Assembly (NCBI RefSeq): GCF_964355755.1
Contig: NC_092677.1
Span: 13,414,601-13,478,600 of the forward strand
From: Antedon mediterranea
Taxonomy: Eukaryota > Echinodermata > Crinoidea > Comatulida > Antedonidae
Reading direction: 5' to 3'
DNA length: 64,000 bases
Both the position numbers and the translations under genes were made by a program. This document shows, in pieces, positions 1,291 through 52,470 of this stretch (within the stretch, counting starts at the first letter, position 1; every line of letters begins with the position of its first letter). The notes below the pieces were generated by a model, which saw only the letters and a list, made by a program, of their open reading frames with translations, did no database searches and had not been told where the DNA came from.

Positions 1291-1338
1291 GAATGAGCAA
1301 GGCCGTTGATTTCAATCTTCTAAAAACGATTGAACATC
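1291..1338 (+). pseudogene. Partial duplicate of the gene A last-exon start
   Basis: TTTTGCAG followed by about 45 bases closely matches the acceptor and first codons of the true exon that begins 67 bases further on. The shared part covers the GATTTCAATCTTCTAAAA stretch. In the phase used by the gene this copy reaches a stop at once (CTT TTC TAA), so it looks like a decoy left by a small tandem duplication across the exon edge. Confidence 0.5.
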
Positions 1339-1357
1339 TTTTCTAATTTTTTTTCAG

Positions 1358-1845
1358 AAGTGAACGAGGATGATTTCAATCTCCTGAAAATGATTGTGTC
1401 AGAGTATTACGATGACAGGAATTGTCTCATTATGCTGAAGGTGTTGTTTAGAGACCATGTGCCTCAATTCAAATTACAAGAAATGAGATCTACAATAGAT
1501 ATGTTAAACGCGTTAGAGGACTCCGGTGATTTAAGTTCAAAAGACATCTCGATAATATACGACACAATCAACTTGACAAAACAATATGCCTTGAAAGATA
1601 AGATACAGAAAGAATTACCATTTCCCAATGTAAGTGGAATACCAATTACCAACTTCACAGAGTACAGACAGAAGATAATGAAACTTGGAATGGAGATAAA
1701 TAGAAGGGATATACATAGAAGTGATATGTATTCTAACAATCCATACAAGGGATACCAAAGTAGTTGGAGAATGATAGACGATTTAGACGACGGCAACATT
1801 CAAACATTGTTGAGTAAACTGAATATGCTGCATTATTGGAATTAA
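1358..1845 (+). CDS. Gene A: terminal exon, type-I tandem DED-like module
   Basis: This is the last exon of a DED-family gene that starts outside the window. The acceptor is TTTTTTTTCAG at 1347-1357; entry is in phase 1 (previous G plus AA gives Glu), so it reads EVNEDDFNLLKMIVSEYY. The first half has the DED helix pattern (NCLIMLKVLFRDHVP, then STIDMLNALEDSGDLSSKDISIIYDTINLT). The second half has the companion-module signature, YRQKIMKLGM then SSWRMIDDLDD. The C-terminus is shorter than in genes B and E and ends LLSKLNMLHYWN. A possible poly(A) signal, AATAAA, is at 2232. Known DED domains bind other DEDs in death-receptor and inflammatory complexes; that role here is inferred. Confidence 0.7.
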
Positions 1846-5222: not shown

Positions 5223-5231
5223 TTCGGTTTG
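5223..5231 (+). repeat. Left target-site duplication TTCGGTTTG
   Basis: Nine bases directly abut the first base of the left inverted repeat. The same nine bases follow the right inverted repeat at 22453-22461. Confidence 0.92.
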
Positions 5232-5655
5232 AGCGCCGTGAAGTTGGTTACTTATTCCTTATTCGACATTCGTCAATGGAAGTTGGTTCCTTATTCGACG
5301 TTCGACATTCGCTAGGCTAGGCCAAAATTTCGAAAATGATAATTTCCCAGCGGTAAATATGCCGTGCGCCACCAACCAATCTCCTGCTGGTACTTATTCC
5401 CTATTCGACATTCATTCGTGAAGTTGGTTCCTTATTCGACGTTCGCTAGGCCGCGGCCGACCGGCTGGCCCAAATTCGTACCAAAGTAGACCTAGTGTAG
5501 ATGTACCTATTTTATCACAGATTTACATTTTTTAGTTCCGATATTACGACCATACCAACGCCTCGGGCCGGGTTCACAATAGTATAGATTGACGTAGTAT
5601 GGTCCTGGAATTCCAGAAATGTGCCACTTGCCCCGACCCAGATCGGGCAAGTACG
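5232..5655 (+). repeat. Left terminal inverted repeat (424 bp)
   Basis: Read against the reverse complement of 22029-22452 this matches base for base, with two differences seen (5390 and 5527) and no gaps. The outer 230 bp hold several copies of GAAGTTGGTT followed by TTATTCGACATTCG-like words, a plausible repeated transposase-binding region. The inner part runs into the first tandem unit, including the variant GACCCAGATCGGG shared only by the two ends. Confidence 0.9.
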
Positions 5656-8600
5656 TGTTTTAACGCAATTTCAAATGCGTATTTTTAGCAATAATTTACT
5701 AAGAATTAATAGCACCACTTTTAAAGTGGCCATATGACCACACCCCGACGCCTCGGGCCGGGTACACAATAATATAGATTGACGTAGTATGGTCCTGGCA
5801 TTCCAGAAATGTGCCACTCGCCCCGGCCCAGTGCGGGCAAGTACGGGTTTTAAAGCAATTTAAAATGCGTATTTTTAGTGTTATTTTACTAAGTATTAAT
5901 AGCACCACTTTTAAAGTGGCAATATGACCACACCCCGACGTCTCGGGCCGGCCGCCGGGTACACAATAGTATAGATTGACGTAGTATGGTCCTGGCTTTC
6001 CAGAAATGTGCCACTTGCCCCGGCCCAGTGCGGGCAAGTACGGATTTTAAAGCAATTTAAAATGCGTATTTTTGGCATTAATTTATTAAACACCACTTTT
6101 AAAGTGGCCATATGACCACACCCCGACGCATCGGGCCGGGTACACAATAGTATAGATTGACGTAGTATGGTCCTGGCATTCCAGAAATGTGCCACCTGCC
6201 CCGGCCCAGTGCGTGCAAGTACGTGTTTTAAAGCAATTTCAAATGCGTATTTTTAGCAAAAATTTACTAAGAATTAATAGCACCACTTTTAAAGTGGCCA
6301 TATGACCACACCCCGACGCCTCGGGTCGAGTTCACAATAGTATAGATTGATGTACAATGGTCCTGGCATTCCATAAATGTGCCACTTGCCCCGGCCCAGT
6401 GCGGGCAAGTACGTGTTTAAAAGCAATTTCAAATTCGTATTTTTAGCATTAATTTACTAAGAATTAATAGCACCACTTTTAAAGTGGCCATATGACCACA
6501 CCCCAACGCCTCGGGCCGGGAACACAATAGTATAGATTGACGTAGAATGGTCCTGGCATTCCAGAAATGTGCCACTTGCCCCGGCCCAGTGCGGGCAAGT
6601 ACGGATTTTAAAGCAATTTAAAATGCGTATTTTTAGCATTAATTTAGTAAACACCACTTTGAAAGTGGCCATATGACCACACCCCGACGCCTCGGGCCGG
6701 GTACACAATAGTATAGATTGACTTAGTATGGTCCTGGATTTCCAGAAATGTGCCACTTGCCCCGGCTCAGTGCGGGCAAGTACGTGTTTAAAAGCAATTT
6801 CAAATGCGTATTTTTAGCATTAATTTACTAAGAATTAATAGCACCACATTTAAAGTGGCCATATGACCACACCCCGACGCCTCGGGCCGGGAACACAATA
6901 GTATAGATTAACGTAGTATGGTCCTGGCATTCCAGAAATATGCCACTTGCCCCGGCCCAGTGCGGGCAAGTACGGATTTTAAAGCAATTTAAAATGCGTA
7001 TTTTTAGCATTAATTTAGTAAACACCACTTTTAAAGTGGCCATATGACCACACCCCGACGCCTCGGGCCGGGTACACAATAGTATAGATTGACGTAGTAT
7101 GGTCCTGGCTTTCCAGAAATGTGCCACTTGCCCCGGCCCAGTGCGGGAAAGTACGGATTTTAAAGCAATTTAAAATGCGTGTTTTTAGTGTTATTTTACT
7201 AAGTATTAATAGCACCACTTTTAAAGTGGCAATATGACCACACCCCGACGCCTCGGGCCGGATTCACAATAGTATGGATTGACGTAGAATGGTCCGGACA
7301 TTCCAGAAATGTGCCACTTGCCCCGGCCCAGTGCGGGCAAGTACGGGTTTTAAAGCAATTTAAAATGCGTATTTTTAGTGTTATTTTACTAAGTATTAAT
7401 AGCACCACTTTTAAAGTGGCAATATGACCGCACCCCGACGCCTCGGGCCGGGTACACAATAGTATAGATTGACGTAGTATGGTCCTGGCTTTCCAGAAAT
7501 GTGCCACTTGCCCCGGCCCAGGGCGAGTACGGATTTTAAAGCAATTTAAAATGCGTATTTTTGGCATTAATTTAGTAAACACCACTTTTAAAGTGGCCAT
7601 ATGACCACACCCCGACGCATCGGGCCGGGTACACAATAGTATAGATTGACGTAGTATGGTCCTGACATTCTAGAAATGTGCCACCTGCCCCGGCGGCCCA
7701 GTGCGTGCAAGTACGTGTTTTAAAGCAATTTCAAATGCGTATTTTTAGCAAAAATTTACTAAGAATTAATAGCACCACTTTTAAAGTGGCCATATGACCA
7801 CACCCCGACGCCTCGGGTCGGGTTCACAATAGTATAGATTGATGTAGAATGGTCCTGGCATTCCATAAATGTGCCACTTGCCCCGGCCCAGTGCGGGCAA
7901 GTAAGTGTTTAAAAGCAATTTCAAATGCGTATTTTTAGCATTAATTTACTAAGAATTAATAGCACCACATTTAAAGTGGCCATATGACCACACCCCGACA
8001 CCTCGGGCCGGGAACACAATAGTATAGATTGACGTAGTATGGTCCTGGCATTCCAGAAATATGCCACTTGCCCCGGCCCAGTGCGAGCAAGTACTGATTT
8101 TAAAGCAATTTAAAATGCGTATTTTTAGCATTAGTAAACACCACTTTTAAAGTGGCCATATGACCACACCCCGACGCCTCGGGCCGGGTACACAATAGTA
8201 TAGATTGACGTATTATGGTCCTGGCTTTCCAGAAATGTGCCACTTGCCCCGGCCCAGTGCGGGCAAGTACGTGTTTAAAAGCAATTTCAAATGCGTATTT
8301 TTAGCATTAATTTACTAAGAATTAATAGCACCACATTTAAAGTGGCCATATGACCACACCCCGACGCCTCGGGCCGGGAACACAATAGTATAGATTGACG
8401 TAGTATGGTCCTGGCATTCCAGAAATATGCCACTTGCCCCGGCCTAGTGCGGGCAAGTACGGATTTTAAAGCAATTTAAAATGCGTATTTTTAGCATTAA
8501 TTTAGTAAACACCACTTTTAAAGTGGCCATATGACCACACCCCGATGCCTCGGGCCGGGTACACAATAGTATAGATTGACGTAGTATGGTCCTGGCTTTC

Positions 8601-8811
8601 CAGAAATGTGCCACTTGCCCCGGCCCAGTGCGGGCAAGTACGGATTTTAAAGCAATTTAAAATGCGTATTTTTAGCATTAATTTAGTAAACACCACTTTT
8701 AAAGTGGCCATATGACCACACCCCGATGCCTCGGGCCGGGTACACAATAGTATAGATTGACGTAGTATGGTCCTGGCTTTCCAGAAATGTGCCACTTGCC
8801 CCGGCCCAGTG
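5560..8811 (-). repeat. Short arm of the tandem array
   Basis: About 17 units of about 180-190 bp. Landmarks of each unit are the CCACTTTTAAAGTGG dyad, GTATGACCACACCCCGACG-like words, TAGATTGACGTAGTATGG, and GTGCCACTTGCCCCGGCCC. Spacer variants alternate (AGTATTAATAGC, AGAATTAATAGC, or AAACACC). All open frames here are artefacts of the repeat. Confidence 0.9.
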
Positions 8812-10759
8812 CAAGTGGCATATTTCTGGAATGTCAGGACCATTCTACGTCAATCCATACTATTGTGAACCCGGCCCGAGGCGTCGGGGTGTGGTCATAT
8901 TGCCACTTTAAAAGTAGTGCTGTTAATACTTAGTAAAAAAACACTAAATATACGCATTTTAAATTGCTTTAAAACACGTACTTGTCCGCACTGGGCCGGG
9001 GCAAGTGGCACATTTCTGGAATGCCAGGACAATACTACGTCAATATATACTATTGTGTACCCGGCCCGAGGCGTCGGGGTGCGGTCATATGGCCACTTTA
9101 AAAGTGGTGTTTACTAAATTAATGCTAAAAATACGCATTTTAAATTGCTTTAAAACACGTACTTGCCCGCACTGGGCCGGGGCAAGTGGCATATTTCTGG
9201 AATGCCAGGACCATTCTACGTCAATCTATACTATCGTGAACCCGGCCCGAGGCGTCGGGGTGTGGTCATATGGCCACTTTAAAAGTGGTGCTATTAATTC
9301 TTAGTAATTATTGGTAAAAATACTCATTTGAAATTGCTTTAAAACACGTACTTGCCCGCACTGGGCCGTGGCAGGTGGCACATTTATGGCATGTCAGGAC
9401 CATTCTACATCAATCTATACTATTGTGAACCCGGCCCGAGGCGTCGGGGTGTGGTCATATTGCCATTTTAAAAGTGGTGCTATTAATACTTAGTAAAATA
9501 ACACTAAAAACACGCATTTTAAATTGCTTTAAAATCCGTACTTGCCCGCACTGGGCCGGGGCAAGTGGCACATTTCTGGAATGCCAGGACCATACTACGT
9601 CAATCTATACTATCGTGAACCCGACTCGAGGCGTCGGGGTGTGGTCATATGGCCACTTTAAAAGTGGTGTTTACTAAATTAATGCTAAAAATACGCATTT
9701 TACCCGCACTGGGCCGGGGCAAGTGGCACATTTCTGGAATGCCAGGACCATACTACGTCAACCTATACTATTGTGTACCCGGCCCGAGGCGTCGGAGTGT
9801 GGTCATATGGCCACTTTAAATGTGGTGCTTTTAATTATTCTTAGTAAATTAATGCTAAAAATACGCATTTGAAATTGCTTTTAAACACGTACTTTCCCGC
9901 AATGGGCTGGGGCAAGTGGCACATTTATGGAATGCCAGGACCATTCTACATCAATCTATACTATTGTGAACCCGACCCGAGGCGTCGGGGTGTGGTCATG
10001 GCCACTTTAAAACTGGTGTTTACTATATTAATGCTAAAAATACGCATTTTAAATTGCTTTAAAATCCGTACTTGCCCGCACTGGGCCGTTGCAAGTGGCA
10101 CATTTCTGGAAAGCCAGGACCATACTACGTCAATCTATAATATTGTGTATCCGGCCTGAGGCGTCGGGGTGTGGTCATATGGCCACTTTAAAAGTGGTGC
10201 TATTATAATACTTAGTTAAAATAACACTAAAAATACACATTTTAAATTGCTTTAAAACACGTACTTGCCCGCACTGGGCCGGGACAAGTGGCACATTTCT
10301 GGAATGCCAGGACCATACTACGTCAATCTATATTATCGTGAACCCGACCCGAAGCGTCGGTGTGTGGTCATATTATGGCCACTTTAAAAGTGGTGTTTAC
10401 TAAATTAATGCTAAAAATACGCATTTGAAATTGCTTTTAAACACGTACTTGCCCGCACTGGGCCGGGGCAAGTGGCACATTTCTGGAAAGCCAGGACCAT
10501 ACTGCGTCAATCTATACTATTGTGTACCCGGCCCGAGGCGTCGGGGTGTGGTCATATGGCCACTTTAAAAGTGGTGCTATTAATACTTAGTAAAATAACA
10601 CTAAAAATACGCATTTTAAATTGCTTTAAAACACGTACTTGCCCCCACTGGGCCGGGGCAAGTGGCACATTTCTAGAAAGTCTGGACCTTTCTACGTCAA
10701 TCCATACTATTGTGAACCCGGCCCGAGGCGTCGGGGTGTGGTCATATTGCCACTTTAAA

Positions 10760-13700
10760 AGTGGTGCTATTAATACTTAGTAAAATAACACTAAAAATAC
10801 GCATTTTAAATTGCTTTAAAATCCGTACTTGCCCGCACTGGGCCGGGGCAAGTGGCATATTTCGGGAATGCCAGGACCATACTACGTTAATCCATACTTG
10901 TGTTCCCGGCCCGAGGCGTCGGGGTGTGGTCATATGGCCACTTTAAATGTGGTGCTATTAATTCTTAGTAAATTAATGCTAAAAATACGCATTTGAAATT
11001 GATTTTAAACACGTACTTGCCCGCACTGGGCCGGGGCAAGTGGCACATTTCTGGAAAGCCAGGACCATACTAAGTCAATCTATACTATTGTGTACCCGGC
11101 CCGAGGCGTCGGGGTGTGGTCATATGGCCACTTTAAAAGTGGTGTTTACTAAATTAATGCTAAAAATACGCATTTTAAATTGCTTTAAAATCCGTACTTG
11201 CCCGCACTGGGCCGGGGCAAGTGGCACATTTCTGGAATGCCAGGACCATTCTACGTCAATCTATACTATTGTGTTCCCGGCCCGAGGCGTTGGGGTGTGG
11301 TCATATGGCCACTTTATAAGTGGTGCTATTAATTCTTAGTAAATAATGCTAAAAATACGCATTTGAAATTGCTTTTAAACACGTACTTGCCCGCACTGGG
11401 CCGGGGCAAGTGGCACATTTCTGGAAAGTCAGGACCATACTACGTCAATCTATACTATTGTGTACCCGGCCCGAGGCGTCGGGGTGTGGTCATATGGCCA
11501 CTTTAAAAGTGGTGTTTACTAAATTATTGCCAAAAATACGCATTTTAAATTGCTTTAAAATCCGTACTCGCCCGCACTGGGCCGGGGCAAGTGGCACATT
11601 TCTAGAAAGTCTGGACCTTTCTACGTCAATCTATATTATTGTGTACCCGGCCCGAGGCGTCGGGGTGTGGTCATATTGCCACTTTAAAAGTGGTGCTATT
11701 AATACTTAGTAAAATAACACTAAAAATACGCATTTTAAATTGCTTTAAAATCCGTACTTGCCCGCACTGGGCCGGGGCAAGTGGCATATTTCTGGAATGC
11801 CAGGACCATACTACGTTAATCTATACTATTGTGTTCCCGGCCCGAGGCGTCGGGGTGTGGTCATATGGCCACTTTAAATGTGGTGCTATTAATTCTTAGT
11901 AAATTAATGCTAAAAATACGCATTTGAAATTGATTTTAAACACGTACTTGCCCGCACTGGGCCGGGGCAAGTGGCACATTTCTGGAAAGCCAGGACCATA
12001 CTAAGTCAATCTATACTATTGTGTACCCGGCCCGAGGCGTCGGGGTGTGGTCATATGGCCACTTTAAAAGTGGTGTTTACTAAATTAATGCTAAAAATAC
12101 GCATTTTAAATTGCTTTAAAATCCGTACTTGCCCGCACTGGGCCGGGGCAAGTGGCACATTTCTGGAATGCCAGGACCATTCTACGTCAATCTATACTAT
12201 TGTGTTCCCGGCCCGAGGCGTTGGGGTGTGGTCATATGGCCACTTTAAAAGTGGTGCTATTAATTCTTAGTAAATTAATGCTAAAAATACGCATTTGAAA
12301 TTGCTTTTAAACACGTACTCTCCCGCACTGGGCCGGGGCAAGTGGCACATTTCTGGAAAGTCAGGACCACACTACGTCAATCTATACTATTGTGTACCCG
12401 GCCCGAGGCGTCGGGGTGTGGTCATATGGCCACTTTAAAAGTGGTGTTTACTAAATTAATGCCAAAAATACGCATTTTAAATTGCTTTAAAATCCGTACT
12501 CGCCCGCACTGGGCCGGGGCAAGTGGCACATTTCTAGAAAGTCTGGACCTTTCTACGTCAATCTATATTATTGTGTACCCGGCCCGAGGCGTCGGGGTGT
12601 GGTCATATTGCCACTTTAAAAGTGGTGCTATTAATACTTAGTAAAATAACACTAAAAATACGCATTTTAAATTGCTTTAAAATCCGTACTTGCCCGCACT
12701 GGGCCGGGGCAAGTGGCATATTTCTGGAATGCCAGGACCATACTACGTTAATCTATACTATTGTGTTCCCGGCCCGAGGCGTCGGGGTGTGGTCATATGG
12801 CCACTTTAAATGTGGTGCTATTAATTCTTAGTAAATTAATGCTAAAAATACGCATTTGAAATTGATTTTAAACACGTACTTGCCCGCACTGGGCCGGGGC
12901 AAGTGGCACATTTCTGGAAAGCCAGGACCATACTAAGTCAATCTATACTATTGTGTACCCGGCCCGAGGCGTCGGGGTGTGGTCATATGGCCACTTTAAA
13001 AGTGGTGTTTACTAAATTAATGCTAAAAATACGCATTTTAAATTGCTTTAAAATCCGTACTTGCCCGCACTGGGCCGGGGCAAGTGGCACATTTCTGGAA
13101 TGCCAGGACAATTCTACGTCAATCTATACTATTGTGTTCCCGGCCCGAGGCGTTGGGGTGTGGTCATATGGCCACTTTAAAAGTGGTGCTATTAATTCTT
13201 AGTAAATTAATGCTAAAAATACGCATTTGAAATTGCTTTTAAACACGTACTTGCCCGCACTGGGCCGGGGCAAGTGGCACATTTCTGGAAAGTCAGGACC
13301 ACACTACGTCAATCTATACTATTGTGTACCCGGCCCGAGGCGTCGGGGTGTGGTCATATGGCCACTTTAAAAGTGGTGTTTACTAAATTAATGCCAAAAA
13401 TACGCATTTTAAATTGCTTTAAAATCCGTACTCGCCCGCACTGGGCCGGGGCAAGTAGCACATTTCTGGAAAGTCAGGACCATACTACGTCAATCTATAC
13501 TATTGTGTACCCGGCCCGAGGCGTCGGGGTGTGGTCATATTGCCACTTTAAAAGTGGTGCTATTAATACTTAGTAAAATAACACTAAAAATACGCATTTT
13601 AAATTGCTTTAAAATCCGTACTTGCCCGCACTGGTGGGCCGAGGCAAGTGGCATATTTCTGGAATGCCAGGACCATACTACGTTAATCTATACTATTGTG

Positions 13701-14200
13701 TACCCGGCCCGAGGCGTCGGGGTGTGGTCATATGGCCACTTTAAATGTGGTGCTATTAATTCTTAGTAAATTAATGCTAAAAATACGCATTTGAAATTGA
13801 TTTTAAACACGTACTTGCCCGCACTGGGCCGGGGCAAGTGGCACATTTCTGGAAAGCCAGGACCATACTAAGTCAATCTATACTATTGTGTACCCGGCCC
13901 GAGGCGTCGGGGTGTGGTCATATGGCCACTTTAAAAGTGGTGTTTACTAAATTAATGCTAAAAATACGCATTTTAAATTGCTTTAAAATCCGTACTTGCC
14001 CGCACTGGGCCGGGGCAAGTGGCACATTTCTAGAAAGTCTGGACCTTTCTACGTCAATCTATATTATTGTGTTCCCGGCCCAAGGCGTTGGGGTGTGGTC
14101 ATATGGCCACTTTAAAAGTGGTGCTATTAATTCTTAGTAAATTAATGCTAAAAATACGCATTTGAATTTGCTTTTAAACACGTACTTGCCCGCACTGGGC
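10760..14200 (+). repeat. Higher-order repeat, about 932-bp period
   Basis: Blocks of five basic units recur with spacings of 931-935 bp. For example, equivalent points fall at 11040, 11971, 12903 and 13838, and at 11639, 12571 and 13503. Each block has the same ordered set of spacer variants, so it was amplified as a five-unit block. Confidence 0.8.
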
Positions 14201-14389
14201 CGGGGCAAGTGGCACAATTCTGGAAAGTCAGGACCATACTACGTCAATCTATACTATTGTGTACCCGGCCCGAGGCGTCGCGGTGTGGTCATATGGCCAC
14301 TTTAAAAGTGGTGTTTACTAAATTAATGCCAAAAATACGCATTTTAAATTGCTTTAAAATCCGTACTCGCCCGCACTGGGCCGGGGCAA

Positions 14390-17300
14390 GTGGCACATTT
14401 CTGGAAAGCCAGGACCATACTACGTCAATCTATACTATTGTGTACCCGGCCCGAGGCGTCGGGGTGCGGTCATATGGCCACTTTAAAAGTGATGCTATTA
14501 ATACTTAGTAAAATAACACTAAAAATACGCATTTTAAAATGCTTTAAAACTCGTACTTGCCCGCACTGGGCCGGGGAAAGTGGCACATTTCTGGAATGCC
14601 AGGACCATACTACGTCAATCTATATTATTGTGTACCCGGCCCGAGGCGTCGGGGTGTGGTCATATGGCCACTTTAAAAGTGGTGCTATTAATACTTAGTA
14701 AAATAACACTAAAAATACGCATTTTAAATTGCTTTAAAACACGTACTTGCCCGCACTGGGCCGGGGCAAGTGGCACATTTCTAGAAAGTCTGGACCTTTC
14801 TACGTCAATCCATACTATTGTGAACCCGGCCCGAGGCGTCGGGGTGTGGTAATATTGCCACTTTAAAAGTGGTGCTATTAATACTTAGTAAAATAACACT
14901 AAAAATACGCATTTAAAATTGCTTTAAAATCCGTACTTGCCCGCACTGGGCCGGGGCAAGTGGCATATTTCTGGAATGCCAGGACCATACTACGTTAATC
15001 TATACTATTGTGTTCCCGGCCCGAGGCGTCGGGGTGTGGTCATATGGCCACTTTAAATGTGGTGCTATTAATTCTTAGTAAATTAATGCTAAAAATACGC
15101 ATTTGAAATTGCTTTAAAACACGTACTTGCCCGCACTGGGCCGGGACAAGTGGCACATTTCTGGAATGCCAGGACCATACTACGTCAATCTATATTATCG
15201 TGAACCCGACCCGAAGCGTCGGTGTGTGGTCATATTATGGCCACTTTAAAAGTGGTGTTTACTAAATTAATGCTAAAAATACGCATTTGAAATTGCTTTT
15301 AAACACGTACTTGCCCGCACTGGGCCGGGGCAAGTGGTACGTTTATGGAATGCCCGGACCATTCTACATCAATCTATACTATTGTGAACCCGACCCGAGG
15401 CGTCGGGGTGTGGTCATATGGCCACTTTAAAAGTGGTGTTTACTAAATTAATGCTAAAAATACGCATTTTAAATTGCTTTAAAATCCGTTCTTGCCCGCA
15501 CTGGGCCGGGGCAAGTGGCACATTTCTGAAAAGCCAGGACCATACTGCGTCAATCTATACTATTGTGTACCCGGCCCGAGGCGTCGGGGTGTGGTCATAT
15601 GGCCACTTTAAAAGTGGTGCTATTAATACTTAGTAAAATAACACTAAAAATACGCATTTTAAATTGCTTTAAAACACGTACTTGCCTGCACTGGGCCGGG
15701 GCAAGTGGCACATTTCTAGAAAGTCTGGACCTTTCTACGTCAATCCATACTATTGTGAACCCGGCCCGAGGCGTCGGGGTGTGGTCATATTGCCACTTTA
15801 AAAGTGGTGCTATTAATACTTAGTAAAATAACACTAAAAATACGCATTTGAAATTGCTTTTAAACACGTACTTGCCCGCACTGGGCCGGGGCAAGTGGCA
15901 CATTTCTGAAAAGTCAGGAACATACTACGTCAATCTATACTATTGTGTACCCGGCCCGAGGCGTCGGGGTGTGGTCATATGGCCACTTTAAAAGTGGTGT
16001 TTACTAAATTAATGCCAAAAATACGCCTTTTAAATTGCTTTAAAACACGTACTTGCCCGCACTGGGCCGGGGCAAGTGGCACATTTCTGGAATGCCAGGA
16101 CCATACTACGTCAATCTATATTATCGTGAACCCGACCCGAAGCGTCGGTGTGTGGTCATATTATGGCCACTTTAAAAGTGGTGTTTACTAAATTAATGCT
16201 AAAAATACGCATTTGAAATTGCTTTTAAACACGTACTTGCCCGCACTGGGCCGGGGCAAGTGGCACGTTTATGGAATGCCAAGACCATTCTACATCAATC
16301 TATACTATTGTGAACCCGACCCGAGGCGTCGGGGTGTGGTCATATGGCCACTTTAAAAGTGGTGTTTACTAAATTAATGCTAAAAATACGCATTTTAAAT
16401 TGCTTTAAAATCCGTACTTGCCCGCACTGGGCCGGGGCAAGTGGCACATTTCTGGAAAGCCAGGACCATACTGCGTCAATCTATACTATTGTGTACCCGG
16501 CCCAAGGCGTCGGGGTGTGGTCATATGGACACTTTAAAAGTGGTGCTATTAATACTTAGTAAAATAACACTAAAAATACGCATTTTAAATTGCTTTAAAA
16601 CACGTACTTGCCCGCGCTGGGCCGGGGCAAGTGGCACATTTCTAGAAAGTCTGGACCTTTCTACGTCAATCCATACTATTGTGAACCCGGCCCGAGGCGT
16701 CGGGGTGTGGTCATATTGCCACTTTAAAAGTGGTGCTATTAATACTTAGTAAAATAACACTAAAAATACGCATTTTAAATTGCTTTAAAATCCGTACTTG
16801 CCCGCACTGGGCCGGGGCAAGTGGCATATTTCTGGAATGCCAGGACCATACTACGTTAATCTATACTATTGTGTTCCCGGCCCGAGGCGTCGGGGTGTGG
16901 TCATATGGCCACTTTAAATGTGGTGCTATTAATTCTTAGTAAAAAATTAATTAATGCTAAAAATACGCATTTGAAATTGCTTTTAAACACGTACTTGCCC
17001 GCACTGGGCCGGGGCAAGTGGCACATTTCTGGAAAGCCAGGACCATACTAAGTCAATCTATACTATTGTGTACTCGGCCCGAGGCGTCAGGGTGTGGTCA
17101 TTATGGCCACTTTAAAAGTGGTGTTTACTAAATTAATGCTAAAAATACGCATTTTAAATTGCTTTAAAATCCGTACTTGCCCGCACTGGGCCGGGGCAAG
17201 TGGCACATTTCTGGAATGCCAGGACCATTCTACGTCAATCTATACTATTGTGTTCCCGGCCCGAGGCGTTGGGGTGTGGTCATATGGCCACTTTAAAAGT

Positions 17301-20300
17301 GGTGCTATTAATTCTTAGTAAATTAATGCTAAAAATACGCATTTGAAATTGCTTTTAAACACGTACTTGCCCGCACTGGGCCGGGGCAAGTGGCACATTT
17401 CTGAAAAGTCAGGAACATACTACGTCAATCTATACTATTGTGTACCCGGCCCGAGGCGTCGGGATGTGGTCATATGGCCAGTTTAAAAGTGGTGTTTACT
17501 AAATTAATGCCAAAAATACACATTTTAAATTGCTTTAAAATCCGTACTCGCCCGCACTGGGCCGGGGCAAGTGGCAAATTTCTGGAAAGCCAGGACCATA
17601 CTACGTCAATCTATACTATTGTGTACCCGGCCCGAGGCGTCGGGGTGCGGTCATATTGCCACTTTAAAAGTGGTGCTATTAATACTTAGTAAAATAACAC
17701 TAAAAATACGCATTTTAAATTGCTTTAAAACCCGTACTTGCCCGCACTGGGCCGGGGAAAGTGGCACATTTCTGGAATGCCAGGACCATACTACGTCAAT
17801 CTATATTTTTGTGTACCCGGCCCGAGGCGTCGGGGTGTGGTCATATGGCCACTTTAAAAGTGGTGCTATTAATACTTAGTAAAATAACACTAAAAATACG
17901 CATTTTAAATTGCTTTAAAACACGTACTTGCCCGCACTGGGCCGGGGCAAGTGGCACATTTCTGGAATGTCCGGACCATTCTACGTCAATCCATACTATT
18001 GTGAATCCGGCCCGAGGCGTCGGGGTGTGGTCATATTGCCACTTTAAAAGTGGTGCTATTAATACTTAGTAAAATAACACTAAAAATACGCATTTAAAAT
18101 TGCTTTAAAATCCGTACTTGCCCGCACTGGGCCGGGGCAAGTGGCATATTTCTGGAATGCCAGGACCATACTACGGTAATCTATACTATTGTGTTCCCGG
18201 CCCGAGGCGTCGGGGTGTGGTCATATGGCCACTTTAAATGTGGTGCTATTAATTCTTAGTAAATTAATGCTAAAAATACGCATTTGAAATTGCTTTAAAA
18301 CACGTACTTGCTCGCACTGGGCCGGGACAAGTGGCACATTTCTGGAATGCCAGGACCATACTACGTCAATCTATATTATCGTGAACCCGACCCGAAGCGT
18401 CGGTGTGTGGTCATATTATGGCCACTTTAAAAGTGGTGTTTACTAAATTAATGCTAAAAATACGCATTTGAAATTGCTTTTAAACACGTACTTGCCCGCA
18501 CTGGGCCGGGGCAAGTGGCACGTTTATGGAATGCCCGGACCATTCTACATCAATCTATACTATTGTGAACCCGACCCGAGGCGTCGGGGTGTGGTCATAT
18601 GGCCACTTTAAAAGTGGTGTTTACTAAATTAATGCTAAAAATACGCATTTTAAATTGCTTTAAAATCCGTTCTTGCCCGCACTGGGCCGGGGCAAGTGGC
18701 ACATTTCTGAAAAGCCAGGACCATACTGCGTCAATCTATACTATTGTGTACCCGGCCCGAGGCGTCGGGGTGTGGTCATATGGCCACTTTAAAAGTGGTG
18801 CTATTAATACTTAGTAAAATAACACTAAAAATACGCATTTTAAATTGCTTTAAAACACGTACTTGCCTGCACTGGGCCTGGGCAAGTGGCACATTTCTAG
18901 AAAGTCTGGACCTTTCTACGTCAATCCATACTATTGTGAACCCGGCCCGAGGCGTCGGGGTGTGGTCATATTGCCACTTTAAAAGTGGTGCTATTAATAC
19001 TTAGTAAAATAACACTAAAAATACGCATTTGAAATTGCTTTTAAACACGTACTTGCCCGCACTGGGCCGGGGCAAGTGGCACATTTCTGAAAAGTCAGGA
19101 ACATACTACGTCAATCTATACTATTGTGTACCCGGCCCGAGGCGTCGGGGTGTGGTCATATGGCCACTTTAAAAGTGGTGTTTACTAAATTAATGCCAAA
19201 AATACGCCTTTTAAATTGCTTTAAAACACGTACTTGCCCGCACTGGGCCGGGGCAAGTGGCACATTTCTGGAATGCCAGGACCATACTACGGCAATCTAT
19301 ATTATCGTGAACCCGACCCGAAGCGTCGGTGTGTGGTCATATTATGGCCACTTTAAAAGTGGTGTTTACTAAATTAATGCTAAAAATACGCATTTGAAAT
19401 TGCTTTTAAACACGTACTTGCCCGCACTGGGCCGGGGCAAGTGGCACGTTTATGGAATGCCAAGACCATTCTACATCAATCTATACTATTGTGAACCCGA
19501 CCCGAGGCGTCGGGGTGTGGTCATATGGCCACTTTAAAAGTGGTGTTTACTAAATTAATGCTAAAAATACGCATTTTAAATTGCTTTAAAATCCGTACTT
19601 GCCCGCACTGGGCCGGGGCAAGTGGCACATTTCTGGAAAGCCAGGACCATACTGCGTCAATCTATACTATTGTGTACCCGGCCCAAGGCGTCGGGGTGTG
19701 GTCATATGGCCACTTTAAAAGTGGTGCTATTAATACTTAGTAAAATAACACTAAAAATACGCATTTTAAATTGCTTTAAAACACGTACTTGCCCGCGCTG
19801 GGCCGGGGCAAGTGGCACATTTCTGGAAAGCCAGGACCATACTACGTCAATCCATACTATTGTGAACCCGGCCCGAGGCGTCGGGGTGTGGTCATATTGC
19901 CACTTTAAAAGTGGTGCTATTAATACTTAGTAAAATAACACTAAAAATACGCATTTTAAATTGCTTTAAAATCCGTACTTGCCCGCACTGGGCCGGGGCA
20001 AGTGGCACATTTCTGGAATGCCAGGACCATTCTACGTCAATCTATACTATTGTGTTCCCGGCCCGAGGCGTTGGGGTGTGGTCATATGGCCACTTTAAAA
20101 GTGGTGCTATTAATTCTTAGTAAATTAATGCTAAAAATACGCATTTGAAATTGCTTTTAAACACGTACTTGCCCGCACTGGGCCGGGGCAAGTGGCACAT
20201 TTCTGAAAAGTCAGGAACATACTACGTCAATCTATACTATTGTGTACCCGGCCCGAGGCGTCGGGGTGTGGTCATATGGCCACTTTAAAAGTGGTGTTTA

Positions 20301-20870
20301 CTAAATTAATGCCAAAAATACACATTTTAAATTGCTTTAAAATCCGTACTCGCCCGCACTGGGCCGGGGCAAGTGGCACATTTCTGGAAAGCCAGGACCA
20401 TACTACGTCAATCTATACTATTGTGTACCCGGCCCGAGGCGTCGGGGTGCGGTCATATTGCCACTTTAAAAGTGGTGCTATTAATACTTAGTAAAATAAC
20501 ACTAAAAATACGCATTTTAAATTGCTTTAAAACCCGTACTTGCCCGCACTGGGCCGGGGAAAGTGGCACATTTCTGGAATGCCAGGACCATACTACGTCA
20601 ATCTATATTTTTGTGTACCCGGCCCGAGGCGTCGGGGTGTGGTCATATGGCCACTTTAAAAGTGGTGCTATTAATACTTAGTAAAATAACACTAAAAATA
20701 CGCATTTTAAATTGCTTTAAAACACGTACTTGCCCGCACTGGGCCGGGGCAAGTGGCACATTTCTGGAATGTCCGGACCATTCTACGTCAATCCATACTA
20801 TTGTGAATCCGGCCCGAGGCGTCGGGGTGTGGTCATATTGCCACTTTAAAAGTGGTGCTATTAATTCTTA
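14390..20870 (+). repeat. Higher-order repeat, 3181-bp block duplicated
   Basis: Equivalent points are 3181 bp apart over a long stretch (14390/17571, 15418/18599, 15943/19124, 16441/19622). From about 19.9 kb the spacing falls to 2802 bp (17438/20240, 17571/20373, 17761/20563), a loss of 379 bp or two basic units. A third copy starts at about 20373 and is cut short. Confidence 0.8.
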
Positions 20871-22028
20871 GTAAATTAATGCTAAAAATACGCATTTTAA
20901 ATTGCTTTTAAACACGTACTTGCCCGCACTGGGCCGGGGCAAGTGGCACATTTCTGGAAAGTCAGGACCATACTACGTCAATCTATACTATTGTGTACCC
21001 GGCCCGAGGCGTCGGGGTGTGGTCATATGGCCACTTTAAAAGTGGTGTTTACTAAATTAATGCCAAAAATACGCATTTTAAATTGCTTTAAAATCCGTAC
21101 TTGCCCGCACTGGGCCGGGGCAAGTGGCACATTTCTGGAATGCCAGGACCATACTACGGCAATCTATATTATCGTGAACCCGACCCGAAGCGTCGGTGTG
21201 TGGTCATATTATGGCCACTTTAAAAGTGGTGTTTACTAAATTAATGCTAAAAATACGCATTTGAAATTGCTTTTAAACACGTACTTGCCCGCACTGGGCC
21301 GGGGCAAGTGGCACATTTCTGGAAAGTCAGGACCATACTACGTCAATCTATACTATTGTGTACCCGGCCCGAGGCGTCGGGGTGTGGTCATATGGCCACT
21401 TTAAAAGTGGTGTTTACTAAATTAATGCCAAAAATACGCATTTTAAATTGCTTTAAAATCCGTACTCGCCCGCACTGGGCCGGGGCAAGTGGCACATTTC
21501 TGGAAAGCCAGGACCATACTACGTCAATCTATACTATTGTGTACCCGGCGGCCGGCCCGAGACGTCGGGGTGTGGTCATATTGCCACTTTAAAAGTGGTG
21601 CTATTAATACTTAGTAAAATAACACTAAAAATACGCATTTTAAATTGCTTTAAAACCCGTACTTGCCCGCACTGGGCCGGGGCAATTGGCACATTTCTGG
21701 AATGCCAGGACCATACTACGTCAATCTATATTATTGTGTACCCGGCCCGAGGCGTCGGGGTGTGGTCATATGGCCACTTTAAAAGTGGTGCTATTAATTC
21801 TTAGTAAATTATTGCTAAAAATATGCATTTGAAATTGCTTTAAAACACGTACTTGCCCGCACTGGGCCGGGGCAGGTGGCACATTTCTGGAATGCCAGGA
21901 CCATACTACGTCAATCTATACTATTGTGTACCCGACGCGAGGCGTCGGTGTGTGGTCATATGGCCACTTTAAAAGTGGTGTTTACTAAATTAATTCTAAA
22001 AATACGCATTTTAAATTGCTTTAAAATC

Positions 22029-22452
22029 CGTACTTGCCCGATCTGGGTCGGGGCAAGTGGCACATTTCTGGAATTCCAGGACCATACTACGTCAATCTAT
22101 ACTATTGTGAACCCGGCCCGAGGCGTTGGTATGGTCGTAATATCGGAACTAAAAAACGTAAATCTGTGATAAAATAGGTACATCTACACTAGGTCTACTT
22201 TGGTACGAATTTGGGCCAGCCGGTCGGCCGCGGCCTAGCGAACGTCGAATAAGGAACCAACTTCACGAATGAATGTCGAATAGGGAATAAGTAACAGCAG
22301 GAGATTGGTTGGTGGCGCACGGCATATTTACCGCTGGGAAATTATCATTTTCGAAATTTTGGCCTAGCCTAGCGAATGTCGAACGTCGAATAAGGAACCA
22401 ACTTCCATTGACGAATGTCGAATAAGGAATAAGTAACCAACTTCACGGCGCT
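22029..22452 (-). repeat. Right terminal inverted repeat (424 bp)
   Basis: Reverse complement of 5232-5655 with two mismatches by eye. The near identity implies a recent insertion or recent homogenisation of the two ends. Confidence 0.9.
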
Positions 22453-22461
22453 TTCGGTTTG
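22453..22461 (+). repeat. Right target-site duplication TTCGGTTTG
   Basis: The nine bases right after CTTCACGGCGCT equal the nine bases before the element. Confidence 0.92.
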
Positions 22462-22864
22462 TCAGGTTGATTCATTATTTACAATCATAGAGATATTATA
22501 GTGAACTCTGTTCACAGTGCATGGGACTGAATAAATATTAAACTGATAAGGCGAGTATGGTCCTCTCGAAATGTGTTTATCATAATAATAGGGCTTATAG
22601 ACATAATAACATATTTGTATTACTCATGTCTAAAGGATACTGTTTAAAGATGCTGTAAATACACAATAATAAAACAGGATGCTGAAGTTTCTTATATCTG
22701 TGGCTGCGACACGATCAGTTCCATGCCTTACAGATAAGTGTACAATACTGTTGGTATTTGTCGCAGTCATACATAAGATCAAAGGACGAGTTTCCATCTT
22801 GGCAACATGTTTCTGTAGATTGTCTTGGTAGGTAATTATAAACTAAATTCTTTTCAGTAACAAA

Positions 22865-24606
22865 ATGGATGATAGCTTTACAGACTTTCGACAAGAATTC
22901 AGTAATGCTTATCCCGGGGATAGAAGACGGGAGTTGAGATTTCTTCTGCATTATCATCTACCGATTGGTTTATTGTCTAAGGAACACAACTCAGGAATAG
23001 ATTTGTTTAATGAACTTAAAACTAAAGGCATCATCACATACAATAATGTTAAAATTATGTCAGAAATTGCAGACGTGACAGAAAACGCCGACGCAAAAGC
23101 AAGTGTAACTAAATACAAAAAGGAAGTTGGTAAAGACTATGATGGCAAGGGTGGGAAAAGTTTGTCTTCACATCGTAAAACTTTCTATAAAGCTATGGAT
23201 GAAATCACGGAAGAATTAGACGGGGGTGATGTACATAAGTTGGTTGGCTACTACGGATTGGGCTCACAAGGCAAGACAAATAAATGGAATTTAGTGTTTT
23301 ATTTAGAGAAAGAGTTAAAATTAAACACACGGAAGAAACTGGAGAGATTTGCCAATCAGTTGAATGCGAGTGCAAAAGTCAAATTGCTTGGTATGTATGT
23401 AAAACAGTGCTATTAATGTATATTTAAATTAATATCAAATAACAGCATAAAATTGTTTACTTATAATTTTAGTAGATAACTACAATATTGTTTTGTATGG
23501 CCAGCATATATAGCTGACCACATATCGGACTAAATTTGCAATTACAGTATATATATTTTTGTTCAAGAAGGGGGGCGGGGGGAGCGGGAGAACGATTGAT
23601 GATAAGTTCTAAACTTTTGGTCTCTGTCTGGATAAAAAAATGTATATCTTACAGTATGTTAATTTGTTGTTGGAAATAAAACATTAATGTATTGTAACTA
23701 AAAAGATAATTCGAACCTGTTTATATAAATTTGTTCTTCTGTATCGGTTATTCAACTATTGTTCTTATTTACATGATGCAGGTGAACAACCAGTTGCTGG
23801 TGGGGGTGCCGTGGAAGCAACATCAACAGCAGCAGGTAAGTATCTCTTTGAACCGACTAAGTTTGTATTATACAATGCATTGAGAAAAATGTCTGAATGA
23901 ATACTCAAATTTTCCTAAGCGTTTCAGCCTAAATTTACGATTCATAAAACCGATAACATATATAGGCCTACAATGAGAACGAGGAAAAATGCCATATACC
24001 ATTTTTCAATATTTTTGTTCACAAATGAACGGATTGAGTCCAATTAACAAACCTTTTTCCTGATTTGCAGAATTGACCGACGATGATTACAAGCTTTTCA
24101 AAACGACCGTGTCAGCGTATTACGATAACAGACCGGATTGCCGTATTATGTTGATGGTGCTGTTTGGAGACCATGTTCCTACACAAAATCATAAAACACG
24201 TAATAGTACAATAGATTGGTTAAATGCGTTAGAGGAATCTGATGATCTAAGTTCTGATGACATCTCTATCGTATATGATACAATAAACCTGACAGCACAT
24301 TATGCTTTACAAAAGAAGATCAAAAAAGAAAAACTATCATTTCCAGAAGTTAGGCCAATAGAAATTACCAACTTCAGCAATTACAGACAGAAGATAATGA
24401 AATTTGGAAAGGGAATAACTTCAAAAGATGTAGCAAAGATTGATGGGTACTATAACAATCCAGTTAAGAAATACGAAAGTAGTTGGGGAATGATATATGA
24501 TTTAGAATTTGAGCAATCAATCTTCAAAGAAAGCAACATCGACGAATTTGTTGCAAAGTTGAAGCAATTGAAACTTCCGTCAAGCCCGGCAGAATTGTTG
24601 GAATAA
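22865..24606 (+). CDS. Gene B: tandem-DED protein, 371 aa, three coding exons
   Basis: The ATG exon is 22865-23390, just after the acceptor CTTTTCAG/TAACAAAATGG; the linker exon is 23782-23835; the last exon is 24071-24606. All junctions are phase 1 and the joined frame is open (1116 nt). The N-terminal DED is at residues 1-90 (FRQEFSNAYPGD, LRFLLHYHLP, LFNELKTKGIITYNNVKIMS). A second DED-like module follows (RKTFYKAMDEI, NKWNLVFYLEKEL), then a Gly/Ala/Thr linker, then a type-I DED pair (LFGDHVP, YRQKIMKFGKGI, YESSWGMIYDLE). The layout resembles the double DED of caspase-8 and FLIP, doubled, but with no caspase domain. Poly(A) signal at 24776. Probably a cytoplasmic adaptor or inhibitor of DED complexes; that role is inferred. 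It looks intact despite the 17-kb insertion in intron 1. Confidence 0.8.
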
Positions 24607-34321: not shown

Positions 34322-35719
34322 GTAAGAATATTTGTATAACATGTCATATATTAGGTAGGTCTGTTATTAAACAAATCAATAATTACCAAATATTTATTTG
34401 TTCATTTTTGAATTCAAAAGCCGAAATGACGTCACTGTATTTCTAGTTGCTATCCCAGGTAGGCCAGTATTCATAATATAATATAATAATAATATTCCAT
34501 GTATCCATAATCAATGATAAGTAATTAAGTTTGACTGAATATACCTGCCTATAATCATTCATGAACAATGTATTGCTAGAGTGAAATGAAGAAGTAAACT
34601 TAATTCTAAAATAACGCTTACTTAAAGATGTATTGTCCCTTTGACTAATTCCCAAACATTTTTTTTTTTTTAATTTCGAAAAAAAGTGGGTCATTTTGAA
34701 GTATCATAATAGTTATTAACTTTCACCAAAAATTATTAAAAAAAAAAATAATTTAACCGAAATACAGATGTTTTTTTGTTCAAAAAATAACTTTGACTTC
34801 CAGTCAAAGTTTTCAATCAAAACATATCCCATAATGCAATGCGCTTGTTTGGCTACTCTGTATGCATAATCATAAAACTTCCTTGCGATCTGTGTGAAAA
34901 CACCTTCTCAACCGTGATGAGTTGTAAACAATCCTAATTAGCATCATGCATAATGCATACTCATGGTTTGAAATCTTTGTTTACTTTCGCTTGCAACGAT
35001 TTCTCAGACGAAATGTAATCTAATTAATTTACCTGTTAATTACGTAAACTGTTGTTTTTGGCTCGAATTTTCGACTTAAAGTGAATAACTTTAATATTAC
35101 TTTGATATGGCCAATTTAAATTTAGAATAATTTTTTTTCATTTTTTGTGTTTCAAGGGACAATACATCTTTAATGGGACGCTCTAGCGTTTGAGCTTGGT
35201 GTGCACAGACTCCCACAATTCAAATGAAAACACCAGACCTGACTCTCTCGAACATAAAGTTAAATTTATAAAACACATGTAATGACTTTTTGAATTAATG
35301 TAGGCCTACTGTAACACCAAACGTTTCACAATTGTTGAGGACATTGATGGGCGTCTTAATTTAGGCTACCAAACTTTAGAACAGAAATGAAAACAAGAAC
35401 GCATTGTACAAAAATGCTTGTTAATAAGTTTTATACAAACTTGCAAAGGCAGACGCCATTGTAAATACATATATAATTAGGCCTACACATTAAATTTGAT
35501 TTAATTTTATCGTGATAAATAATACCATATAATAGTATTATTATTATTAATACTATATCCTTTAATAAAGCTTGATGATATTACGTTGAAAAGGGTAACA
35601 TAACGTATGATTTTACCAACTAATAAAAAAATGTATTGGACCAGTGGTTATTATATTCATTTTGTAAATTGAAACGACAGTCTTAATTAAGAAAATAGAA
35701 TTTCTTTTTCAGTAACATA

Positions 35720-37728
35720 ATGGATGGATTGAGAAACTTTTGTCAAGAATTCAGTAATGCTTATCCTGGTGATACTGTAAAGAAGTTGAGATTTCTTCTG
35801 CATGAGCACCTACCAGTTGGTGAATTATCACAGAAAGGCTATACAGGAATGAGTTTATTTAATGACCTTAAAAGTAAAGGCCTTATCGCATACAATGATA
35901 TTAACCTTATGACAGAAATTGCAGACGTAACAAAAAATGGTGATGCAAAAGCCAGTGTGAAGAAGTACAAAGAAAGCGTTGGTGAACAATATGATGATAG
36001 CTGCCCATGCGAAGCAGGTTTGTCTTTACAGCGTAAAACACTTTATGAAGCTATGACTGCAATCACAGAAAATGACAGGGGTGATTTGCACAATTTGATT
36101 GAGTTCTACGGATTAAAAGCACTCGGGTTTACAAATAAATGGGATTTGGTATTTCATTTGGAAAAAGAACTCGAATTGAACACCCAGGCGAAATTGGCGG
36201 TATTTGCCGGAAAGTTGCACAAAGGACCAAAAACCATATTACTGGGTATGTATTAAAAAATGATCCCTCTTTTAAATGTTACACGTTTAATATTACACCA
36301 TTTCCATCATCTTCAGCAGACTAATCTTAAATAACCAATTCTGTGCTTCGCTTTGGCCTTCCCAGATTAGAAGTTTTTATTTTTATTGTACAGGTGAAGA
36401 AGACCAGGGAACAAGTGGAGGATTACCTGCAGCTAATGTTGGTGGTATGTTAGGTCTTCTATTAGATTAGTCCAACATTGTCTCATTTTTATTAATTGAA
36501 ACATGCATACATACACAAGCATTTTAAATTGACACTTTAGTTTATGGAAATAATTGGCTTATACATCATTAAGTTTGACTTAAGAATAACAGGGCCTTTA
36601 GGCATTATATTTTCTTACTGGTAGGCTACAAGTACTGCACTACGGTAGCATTTAAAAAAAAAAAACTTAGAAAGGTATTGAATGTCATCTATGTGTTTGA
36701 TTAAATAACCTAAGCATAATATTTTTACTTTACTCTCTATAATTACATTAAATAATACATTGTAATTTTACAGTTAGTCAAGCTGCAGCACTACCTGAAA
36801 GACCACCACTGACGCATTTAAATATTGGTAAGTACTACTGTATATACTTTGGATGCCATGAAAGTATGAACAATTAAAACATGTATTTAAGCATGGAGAA
36901 ACCAGATTTGAGTGATGATGTGTACCGTATTTAAAGACCCAAAGTAGGTTTAAAGTAAAGTTAACCGGTCGGGCCCACGCAAGATTTGATAAGGCAGGTA
37001 ATGGTGGAATGTACAAGCATCGGGAAACCGCCGATTCTAGCACGGTGAGAGAAAATATCATCATTTTTGGTGAGCAAAATTCCATTCAGCCGACTTAACC
37101 GCAAACGTTCACATTCACCATATTATTCAATGCCATAAGTTATCCTTATTAAAGAGAATAAAATGCTTTTTTTAAAGATCTTAATGAAGAAACTTTCCTG
37201 GAGCTTCTTGAAGACTTGTCCGAATGGTTAAAAGTTGATGGAAATGTCTACCTGTTAAAATTACTACTTGCCGATTTTAGCGAAATTGCTGTAGGAGACA
37301 TAGAGGAAACAAAGGAACCATACGATCTATTTAGATTGCTCAATACTGCTGGACGTATCAGCGGAAAAAACGTTGATGTAATCATTGAAGCCTTCAGTTT
37401 GTGTGGATGGTATGGTGCTGCGGATGTGATAAAGCAAAAGATACCAAAATTCGATGGATTCGTTAGGGACATGAAAATAACTAAATTCTCTCAACTTAGA
37501 CAAAATTTAATCCCATTTGGTCGCATGCTAGGCCTTAGTAAGATGAAAAAAATATGCCATTGGTATAAAATTGCTGTTAATCAAGTTGAAGATCGATGGG
37601 ACCTCTTGTCCGAACTTGAAAACAGGGATCTACTTACAAATGTAAAATTCATTAATAAACTTGAAAATAATAAGATGACGAAAGAAGCGAGTGTGCTGAA
37701 GAAAGGCCTCAACCTAAAGGTTAAGTAA
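35720..37728 (+). CDS. Gene C: tandem-DED protein, 393 aa, four coding exons
   Basis: The acceptor TTCTTTTTCAG/TAACATAATGG sets the start. Exons are 35720-36245, 36394-36444, 36774-36827 and 37178-37728. All junctions are phase 1, total 1182 nt, no internal stop. The N-terminal DED pair reads FCQEFSNAYPGD, LRFLLHEHLP, LFNDLKSKGLIAYNDINLM, then RKTLYEAMTAI and NKWDLVFHLEKEL. The linkers read EEDQGTSGGLPA and LPERPPLTHLN. The last exon is type II: FLELLEDLSEWLKV, LLKLLLADF, PYDLFRLLNTAGRISGKNVD, then LRQNLIPFGRMLG and EDRWDLLSELE. Poly(A) signal at 37761. This is the cleanest complete member. DED function is inferred from sequence pattern only. Confidence 0.8.
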
Positions 37729-51975: not shown

Positions 51976-52470
51976 TGTCTCGAAAACAGAGACCTCGAAA
52001 ACAGAGACCAGAGACCCGAGACCCAGGGTCTCTGTTTTCGAGAAAATCTCGAAAACAGAGACCCACACTAAAACGTCTCAATATTACGTAATATAGGGGG
52101 TCTCTGTTTCGAGTTCTCGAAAACAGAGACCCCCACTAAAACGTCTCAATATTACATTATATAGGGGGTCTCTGTTTTCGAGTTTTTCCCAAAAACAGAG
52201 ATCCCCCACTAAAACGTCTCAATATTACGTAATATAGGGGGTCTCTGTTTTCGAGTTTTTCTCGAAAACAGAGACCCCACTAAAACTTCTCAATATTAAG
52301 TCAATATTACGTTATATAAGGGGTCTCTGTTTTCGAGAAAAACTCGAAAACAGAGACCCCCACTAAAACGTCTCAATATTACGTAATATAGGGGGTCTCT
52401 GTTTTCGAGTTCTCGAAAACAGAGACCCCACTAAAACGTCTCAATGTTACGTCAATATTACGTTATATAG
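51976..52470. repeat. Tandem array of hairpin units
   Basis: Six units of about 68-83 bp start near 52026, 52096, 52164, 52237, 52320 and 52391. Each has GGGTCTCTGTTTTCGAG facing CTCGAAAACAGAGACCC across 0-6 bases, then CACTAAAACGTCTCAATATT and the palindrome ATATTACGTAATAT or a variant. It adjoins the DIRS-like remnant. No coding capacity. Confidence 0.9.

Follow-up and report, generated by a model that had tools for sequence, protein, structure and literature searches.

The locus raises the question of whether a long satellite-like block in the window (the whole 64,000-nucleotide stretch of Antedon mediterranea DNA analysed here, G000:C8:13414601-13478600) is ordinary satellite DNA or a unit that has been transposed as such. 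The block occupies positions 5232-22452 (17,221 bp) and is bounded by exact 9-bp duplications, with AGCGCCGTGAAG as the outermost sequence at one border, CTTCACGGCGCT at the other, and TTCGGTTTG directly outside both, in agreement with the 17.2-kb element with a clean 9-bp duplication that had been described from the letters of the window alone (hereafter, the sequence-only reading). The gapless 424-bp terminal match with two differences, claimed in the same reading, was reproduced as well; in an ungapped comparison of the two ends, the first mismatches fall at positions 159 and 296 of the element, followed by one at 425. At each end, a non-satellite terminal domain takes up the outermost ~326 bp, and the remainder of the 424 bp already belongs to the array. 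Within this domain, GAAGTTGG occurs at positions 5240, 5279, and 5420 of the left end, and CCAACTTC at 22257, 22398, and 22437 of the right end. Tandem repeat was said to fill the interior, which holds with the refinement that the arms are strongly unequal (~3.6 and ~13.6 kb): two opposed arrays of ~190-bp units, also readable as 371-bp dimers by Tandem Repeats Finder, together span 5558-22126 and meet without a unique middle (Table 1).

Table 1. Features of the element and its borders, in window coordinates
Feature	Position	Strand	Method
Left 9-bp target duplication, TTCGGTTTG	5223..5231	.	Flank comparison
Left terminal inverted repeat, 424 bp	5232..5655	+	Ungapped end comparison, motif search
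Short arm: array, 17.5 units of 190 bp	5558..8812	+	Tandem Repeats Finder
Palindrome centre / arm switch, 10 bp, without counterpart in the sister copy C7:9.24	8810..8819	.	Copy comparison
Long arm: array, 71.4 units of 190 bp	8811..22126	- (opposite orientation)	Tandem Repeats Finder
Right terminal inverted repeat, differing from the left one at 2 positions	22029..22452	-	Ungapped end comparison, motif search
Right 9-bp target duplication, TTCGGTTTG	22453..22461	.	Flank comparison

A search of the genome (354 Mb in 18 contigs) with a 329-bp end, as the sequence-only reading had suggested, yielded further copies in convergent pairs, and this genome-wide recurrence excludes chance. The pairs form two families, F1 (eight convergent end-pairs, 7.8-20.4 kb, including the window element) and F2 (12 convergent end-pairs, 3.9-24.4 kb, the shortest one being rearranged), in counts that leave out single, partial, or decayed ends. 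Together they amount to 302 kb, with 18 of the 20 elements being at least 12 kb long. F2 has ~80 terminal bp in common with F1 at 83% identity, and has its own 192-196-bp units; the ends of the two families start with AGCGCC or ACCGGC. The degenerate end ASCGSCGTGAAGTTGG is present at 53 exact and six one-mismatch places in the genome, against two for the reversed control. Interiors were fully read in five of the eight F1 elements (the window element, C7:9.24, C1:34.35, C1:25.60, and C1:2.31) and four of the 12 F2 elements (C4:24.80, C7:19.12, C5:21.28, and C10:11.43), nine of the 20 pairs in all; apart from C10:11.43, and from C1:2.31 where 1.9 kb breaks the array, they consist of tandem repeat between the terminal domains. 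A scan of the window element, C4:24.80, C7:19.12, C1:2.31, and a 2-kb F1 piece gave two frames of at least 150 aa, both within the satellite, and C5:21.28 contains no frame of at least 110 aa. Single or unusual ends, partly read in 18 + 7 + 5 stretches, comprise truncated or diverged F1 and F2 pieces, retroelement-like frames, and a third family that is also filled with repeats; no transposase was seen in them on inspection by eye, with a Pfam scan for a minority of the frames at most.

Other copies lacking 9-bp duplications had been named in the sequence-only reading as a finding that would count against it, and the survey of the copies did not bring about this refutation. Exact 9-bp duplications flank 17 of the 20 end-pairs (F1, 7/8; F2, 10/12), yet three have none that is exact, namely C5:8.65 and C11:21.86 (7/9 each) and the rearranged C10:11.43 (4/9). 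The 17 exact duplications are 17 different sequences without a clear consensus, and among 380 wrong pairings taken as a control, the best agreement was 6/9, reached six times. Flanks were also joined with a single 9-bp copy and used to search the genome for empty sites, the best 40 candidates being scored per search. Among the matches listed, the joined site of C1:2.31 is found uninterrupted over its whole length at 39 places (98-99%), that of C3:36.28 at two places (99%), and that of C4:24.80 at 40 places (98-100%, with 24 at 100%). These three copies are inserted into other repeats whose uninterrupted versions persist. For C5:8.65, matches of 90-97% cross the junction, as would be expected if the duplication had decayed. 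Viewed by itself, the interior resembles any other tandem array, dimers and amplified blocks included, as would be expected of ordinary satellite DNA that carries an inversion and has acquired its inverted ends and 9-bp repeat by rearrangement or chance; this explanation is nevertheless extremely improbable in the face of ends common to 20 convergent pairs, 17 exact duplications, and empty sites for three copies. Ordinary satellite DNA without transposon borders is in fact refuted by the empty sites, unless these are assembly errors. The exact duplications and the empty sites thus bear out the view of a transposed unit. By structure, with long inverted ends containing tandem repeats and fixed-length duplications at many sites, the element is a foldback transposon; in full, it is very probably a giant non-autonomous DNA transposon of the foldback type that has presumably been moved in trans, likeliest by a Mutator-like transposase.

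Movement of the array as a unit is best seen in the comparison of the window element with C7:9.24, which lies on a separate contig and has a differing 9-bp duplication. The left 330 bp are identical between the two copies, as are the right 330 bp, and left and right differ by two within each copy alike. The short arm has the same length (3.58 kb) in both, and ~15 of 15.9 kb are collinear at 99.5%, in segments of 3,578 bp (7 mismatches), 7,116 bp (27), 2,039 bp (20), 1,530 bp (19), and 1,221 bp (3), giving a total of 76 mismatches in 15,484 aligned bp, where adjacent segments overlap by up to ~200 bp (repeating units) and some mismatches cluster at segment ends. Identity of the ends alone is no proof of sisterhood, as the right end of C5:8.65 is also identical to ends of the C1 copies. 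Since the window element and C7:9.24 are collinear, with identical ends and different duplications, the satellite palindrome moved whole in this pair, and the simplest reading of the alignments is one recent transposition of an element of ~15 kb or more. It could be argued that most arrays were short at insertion and expanded in place later, so that large satellite palindromes would not truly transpose, because the unit-block differences between the sisters and a triplicate block in the 24.4-kb copy show that arms do change in place. We consider this improbable: the two sisters are near-identical unit by unit over ~15 kb and have the same short arm, and a match of such length points to a common source that was already that long. 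Clear full-length movement is seen in this single pair only, and growth after insertion is possible for the other arrays. C1:34.35 and C1:25.60 make up a second pair of sisters, which are mirrored in orientation; their short arms are equal at 1.96 kb, the long arm is more reshuffled, and eight segments are collinear (11,240 bp, 121 mismatches).

All of this evidence is drawn from one assembly, and missed adapters in long reads are a known source of long inverted repeats. Palindromes could be made by fold-back reads in this way, but the arms are unequal and internally different, each of the 17 insertions has its own 9-bp duplication, and sisters on different contigs have the same left-right differences, so that an assembly or read artefact is hardly credible.

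Following movement, repeat blocks were gained or lost. Unit blocks differ between the collinear segments of the window element and C7:9.24, which also differ at the centre by the 10 bp that the latter lacks at its arm switch, and the 24.4-kb F2 copy contains a ~3.05-kb block in triplicate at ~99% identity. At the centre, C5:21.28 is devoid of ~29 bp that C4:24.80 has, C1:34.35 and C1:25.60 have one common centre, and the arm switches of C7:19.12 and C1:2.31 are at other points of the unit. Arm length may change in both directions through unequal exchange or the duplication of blocks, and the centre may lose short stretches whenever a hairpin or cruciform formed there is cut and then rejoined. 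The copies record how a very long palindrome changes in an animal genome, by gain and loss of arm blocks and short differences at the centre. Recent homogenisation of the two ends within a copy was also considered and is unsupported: left and right ends differ by 2-4 events over 330 bp in 7/7 copies (a count that leaves out the interrupted left end of C1:2.31), about equal to the mean of 1.8 mismatches and 0.6 gaps between ends of different copies (98 comparisons over 330 bp), and left-right differences are common to sister copies.

For the source of the transposase, a profile search of the genome with PF10551 gave 36 MULE-domain matches, and a protein search with one MULE type gave 32, for which the distance check used 17 positions that also stand for the other 15, these lying at or beside the same places. 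Weak matches can escape such searches; of those obtained, none falls inside the 20 pairs, and the closest one is still 34 kb away from its nearest neighbour among the 59 ASCGSCGTGAAGTTGG ends; the helper with the same ends that the sequence-only reading expected was thus not recovered. An F1-like end at C4:9.685M is 20 kb from a MULE match, with the end motif absent from the 6 kb around the match. Of the MULE type used as protein query, the one copy whose ends were seen, at C7:10.44M, was rejected as the source, its 32-bp inverted ends, which start with CCGAAACGGCCGCC, being unlike those of the element. Related copies of this type carry matches under the Pfam cut-off to PHD (L033) and FLYWCH (L034). 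A second MULE type, which has a 651-aa frame, is 99.93% identical across all 4.5 kb fetched at two places, its ends being beyond the stretch. Because neither a transposase nor an autonomous copy was found, we infer the mobilisation in trans as well as the superfamily. The earlier assignment to the Mutator/FB group remains plausible, in that 9 bp fits, while no transposase is linked to the ends. The published duplications are 8-11 bp for MULEs, a range not unique to them, and 9 bp for Rehavkus (PMC6446971).

A transposase produced elsewhere, likeliest in the Mutator-like (MULE/Rehavkus) group, would recognise the terminal domain through the repeated GAAGTTGG and CTTATTCG motifs of its outer ~210 bp, pair both ends and then cut, and insert the element via a 9-bp staggered cut. 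The missing transposase could be a weak MULE, be encoded by an intron-split gene, or belong to another superfamily. The last of these, a true foldback transposon served by a non-Mutator transposase such as that of Merlin or P/Galileo, is possible, though rather unlikely; a MULE gene with the element's ends was not found among the genome matches, in keeping with it. P-type elements have 7-8-bp duplications, which counts against P/Galileo. Galileo, with a P-type transposase, is also a foldback element in structure (PMC3688188), and for Merlin elements, which may contain tandem repeats, duplications of 8 or 9 bp are described (PMC8101967). The GG with which Merlin ends are reported to start in the same account speaks against Merlin, since those found here start with AGCGCC or ACCGGC.

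The unit consensus sequences of F1 and F2 align over nearly the whole length with a score of 92, whereas 100 base shuffles, aligned at fewer rotations than the real pair, score 23 on average and at most 36. The units are thus homologous, and the satellite and the ends share ancestry; judged from these alignments, the satellite-armed design predates the split of F1 and F2. On balance, we lean towards a satellite lineage whose mode of life and of spread is that of a giant transposon: the ~190-bp repeat and the ends would have descended together through the split into two or more families, and palindromic arrays of ~15 kb would be able to move intact. If so, a long array would not prevent transposition, and many of the satellite blocks dispersed outside heterochromatin may be transposed units and not debris. 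The means by which satellite DNA passes from chromosome to chromosome is not a settled matter, to which the present elements (3.9-24.4 kb, almost wholly satellite where read, and between target duplications that are exact in 17 of 20) suggest one answer, that a large satellite array can itself jump.

The closest known systems are foldback elements. Drosophila FB and sea urchin TU are built as foldbacks with repeats in the arms; the duplications are 9 bp in FB and 8 bp in TU, and the repeats and elements of both are much shorter. The nearest published case is Tetris of Drosophila virilis, which, as described, likewise has long inverted arms, each made of an outer domain and of ~220-bp tandem repeats further in, 8-10-bp duplications, no transposase found, and repeats that gave rise to satellite arrays (PMC4079207). 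It differs in its arms of at most 1,735 bp, its middle domain, and its three structurally complete copies only, whereas the elements found here reach 24.4 kb without a unique middle. The authors of that account suggest that transposition may have been disrupted by larger arrays (PMC4079207), against which runs the movement of a ~15-kb array as a whole in one sister pair. Tm1, a Mutator/Foldback element of root-knot nematodes, is reported to have inverted ends of composite build that include tandem repeats, duplications mostly of 9 bp (8-10 bp in 45/53 elements) without a target consensus, and non-autonomous forms, but its repeats are 13-15 bp, its end motifs are asymmetric, and some members carry a transposase (PMC3169594). 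Rehavkus is similar in its 9-bp duplication and in a minisatellite adjoining an end, and differs in its PHD-finger transposase, a minisatellite before the 3' end only, and inverted repeats of 26-400 bp (PMC6446971). What is unusual here is the size, the presence of only satellite between short terminal domains in the copies read, and the array of one pair that moved whole; no satellite-only foldback element of such size was found among the titles and opening abstract lines of the open-licence papers that searches on foldbacks, satellites, and inverted repeats listed.

Galileo, too, is described with long, internally repeated inverted ends, and differs in its 0.5-1.2-kb arms, its P-type transposase, and the binding sites in its arm repeats (PMC3688188); in the elements tested here, one of F1 and two of F2, exact GAAGTTGG and CTTATTCG are confined to the outer ~210 bp. 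The parallel with its extra binding sites fits instead a third family with the related end GTGAAGTTGGTTACTAGTTC, found at 49 exact places, the nearest MULE match being 20 kb from these ends. Nine convergent pairs are among them, 0.3-8.7 kb apart, and the 3 kb read consists of ~147-bp units in which GTTACTTATTC occurs 10 times.

The 24.4-kb copy of the second foldback family, F2 (C5:21281659-21306065; L065-L067), contains a block of ~3.05 kb three times at ~99% identity, which is a recent block amplification. Among copies of F1, the family of the window transposon, the left end of C1:2.31 is split by a 1.9-kb insertion (C1:2305544-2307417; L029), with 19 bp of that end found at either side. The host of C1:2.31 is a ~1.1-kb repeat, and the same repeat matches the flanks of another F1 copy, C5:8.65. 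This repeat occurs in many near-identical copies (e.g., C10:19327956-19329038) and apparently has inverted ends; F1 seems to have struck it more than once. Two full-length foldback copies, C11:21862145-21874499 and C5:8649411-8669774, are bordered by duplications matching at 7/9 positions, even though their ends hardly differ from the ends of other copies.

A third family has an end related to those of F1 and F2, GTGAAGTTGGTTACTAGTTC or close to it, and repeat units of ~147 bp that themselves contain the end motif GTTACTTATTC. The places matching the third-family end across the genome include nine convergent pairs of 0.3-8.7 kb.

Mutator-like transposase (MULE) genes were sought as possible helpers of the foldback elements. 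One MULE type, which we take to be Rehavkus-like, is intron-split and has related copies with weak PHD and FLYWCH matches; the inverted ends of one copy are 32 bp long and start with CCGAAACGGCCGCC. A second MULE, found at five places in the MULE-domain search of the genome, has an intact 651-aa frame, and is probably recently active, as judged from the 99.93% sequence identity between two copies over 4.5 kb.

Stretches of the genome (L-numbers, positions given by contig) and frames of the window
Feature	Label	Position
Third family	L041	C8:22622788-22623452
Third family	L120	C5:20946641 onward
651-aa MULE, compared copy	L121	C2:1380500-1385000
651-aa MULE, compared copy	L122	C5:1625580-1630080
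Intron-split MULE type	L062	C7:10435000-10444000
Intron-split MULE type	L063, L056, L033-L036	
Weak DED match		window 1324-1845
Weak DED match		window 22847-23416
Weak DED match		window 24064-24606
Weak DED match		window 37162-37728

In the window, four frames match the death effector domain (Pfam DED) weakly, all four below the curated cut-off, and similar frames recur at 35699, 46726, 48064, and 58893. Two of the weak-DED frames flank the transposon, which lies ~0.4 kb ahead of the one at 22847. Elsewhere in the window, a tandem array (52026-52470) is built of units each of which forms an inverted repeat (GGGTCTCTGTTTTCGAG...CTCGAAAACAGAGACCC). The array adjoins retroelement frames, where 52478-53209 gives an RNase H-like match.
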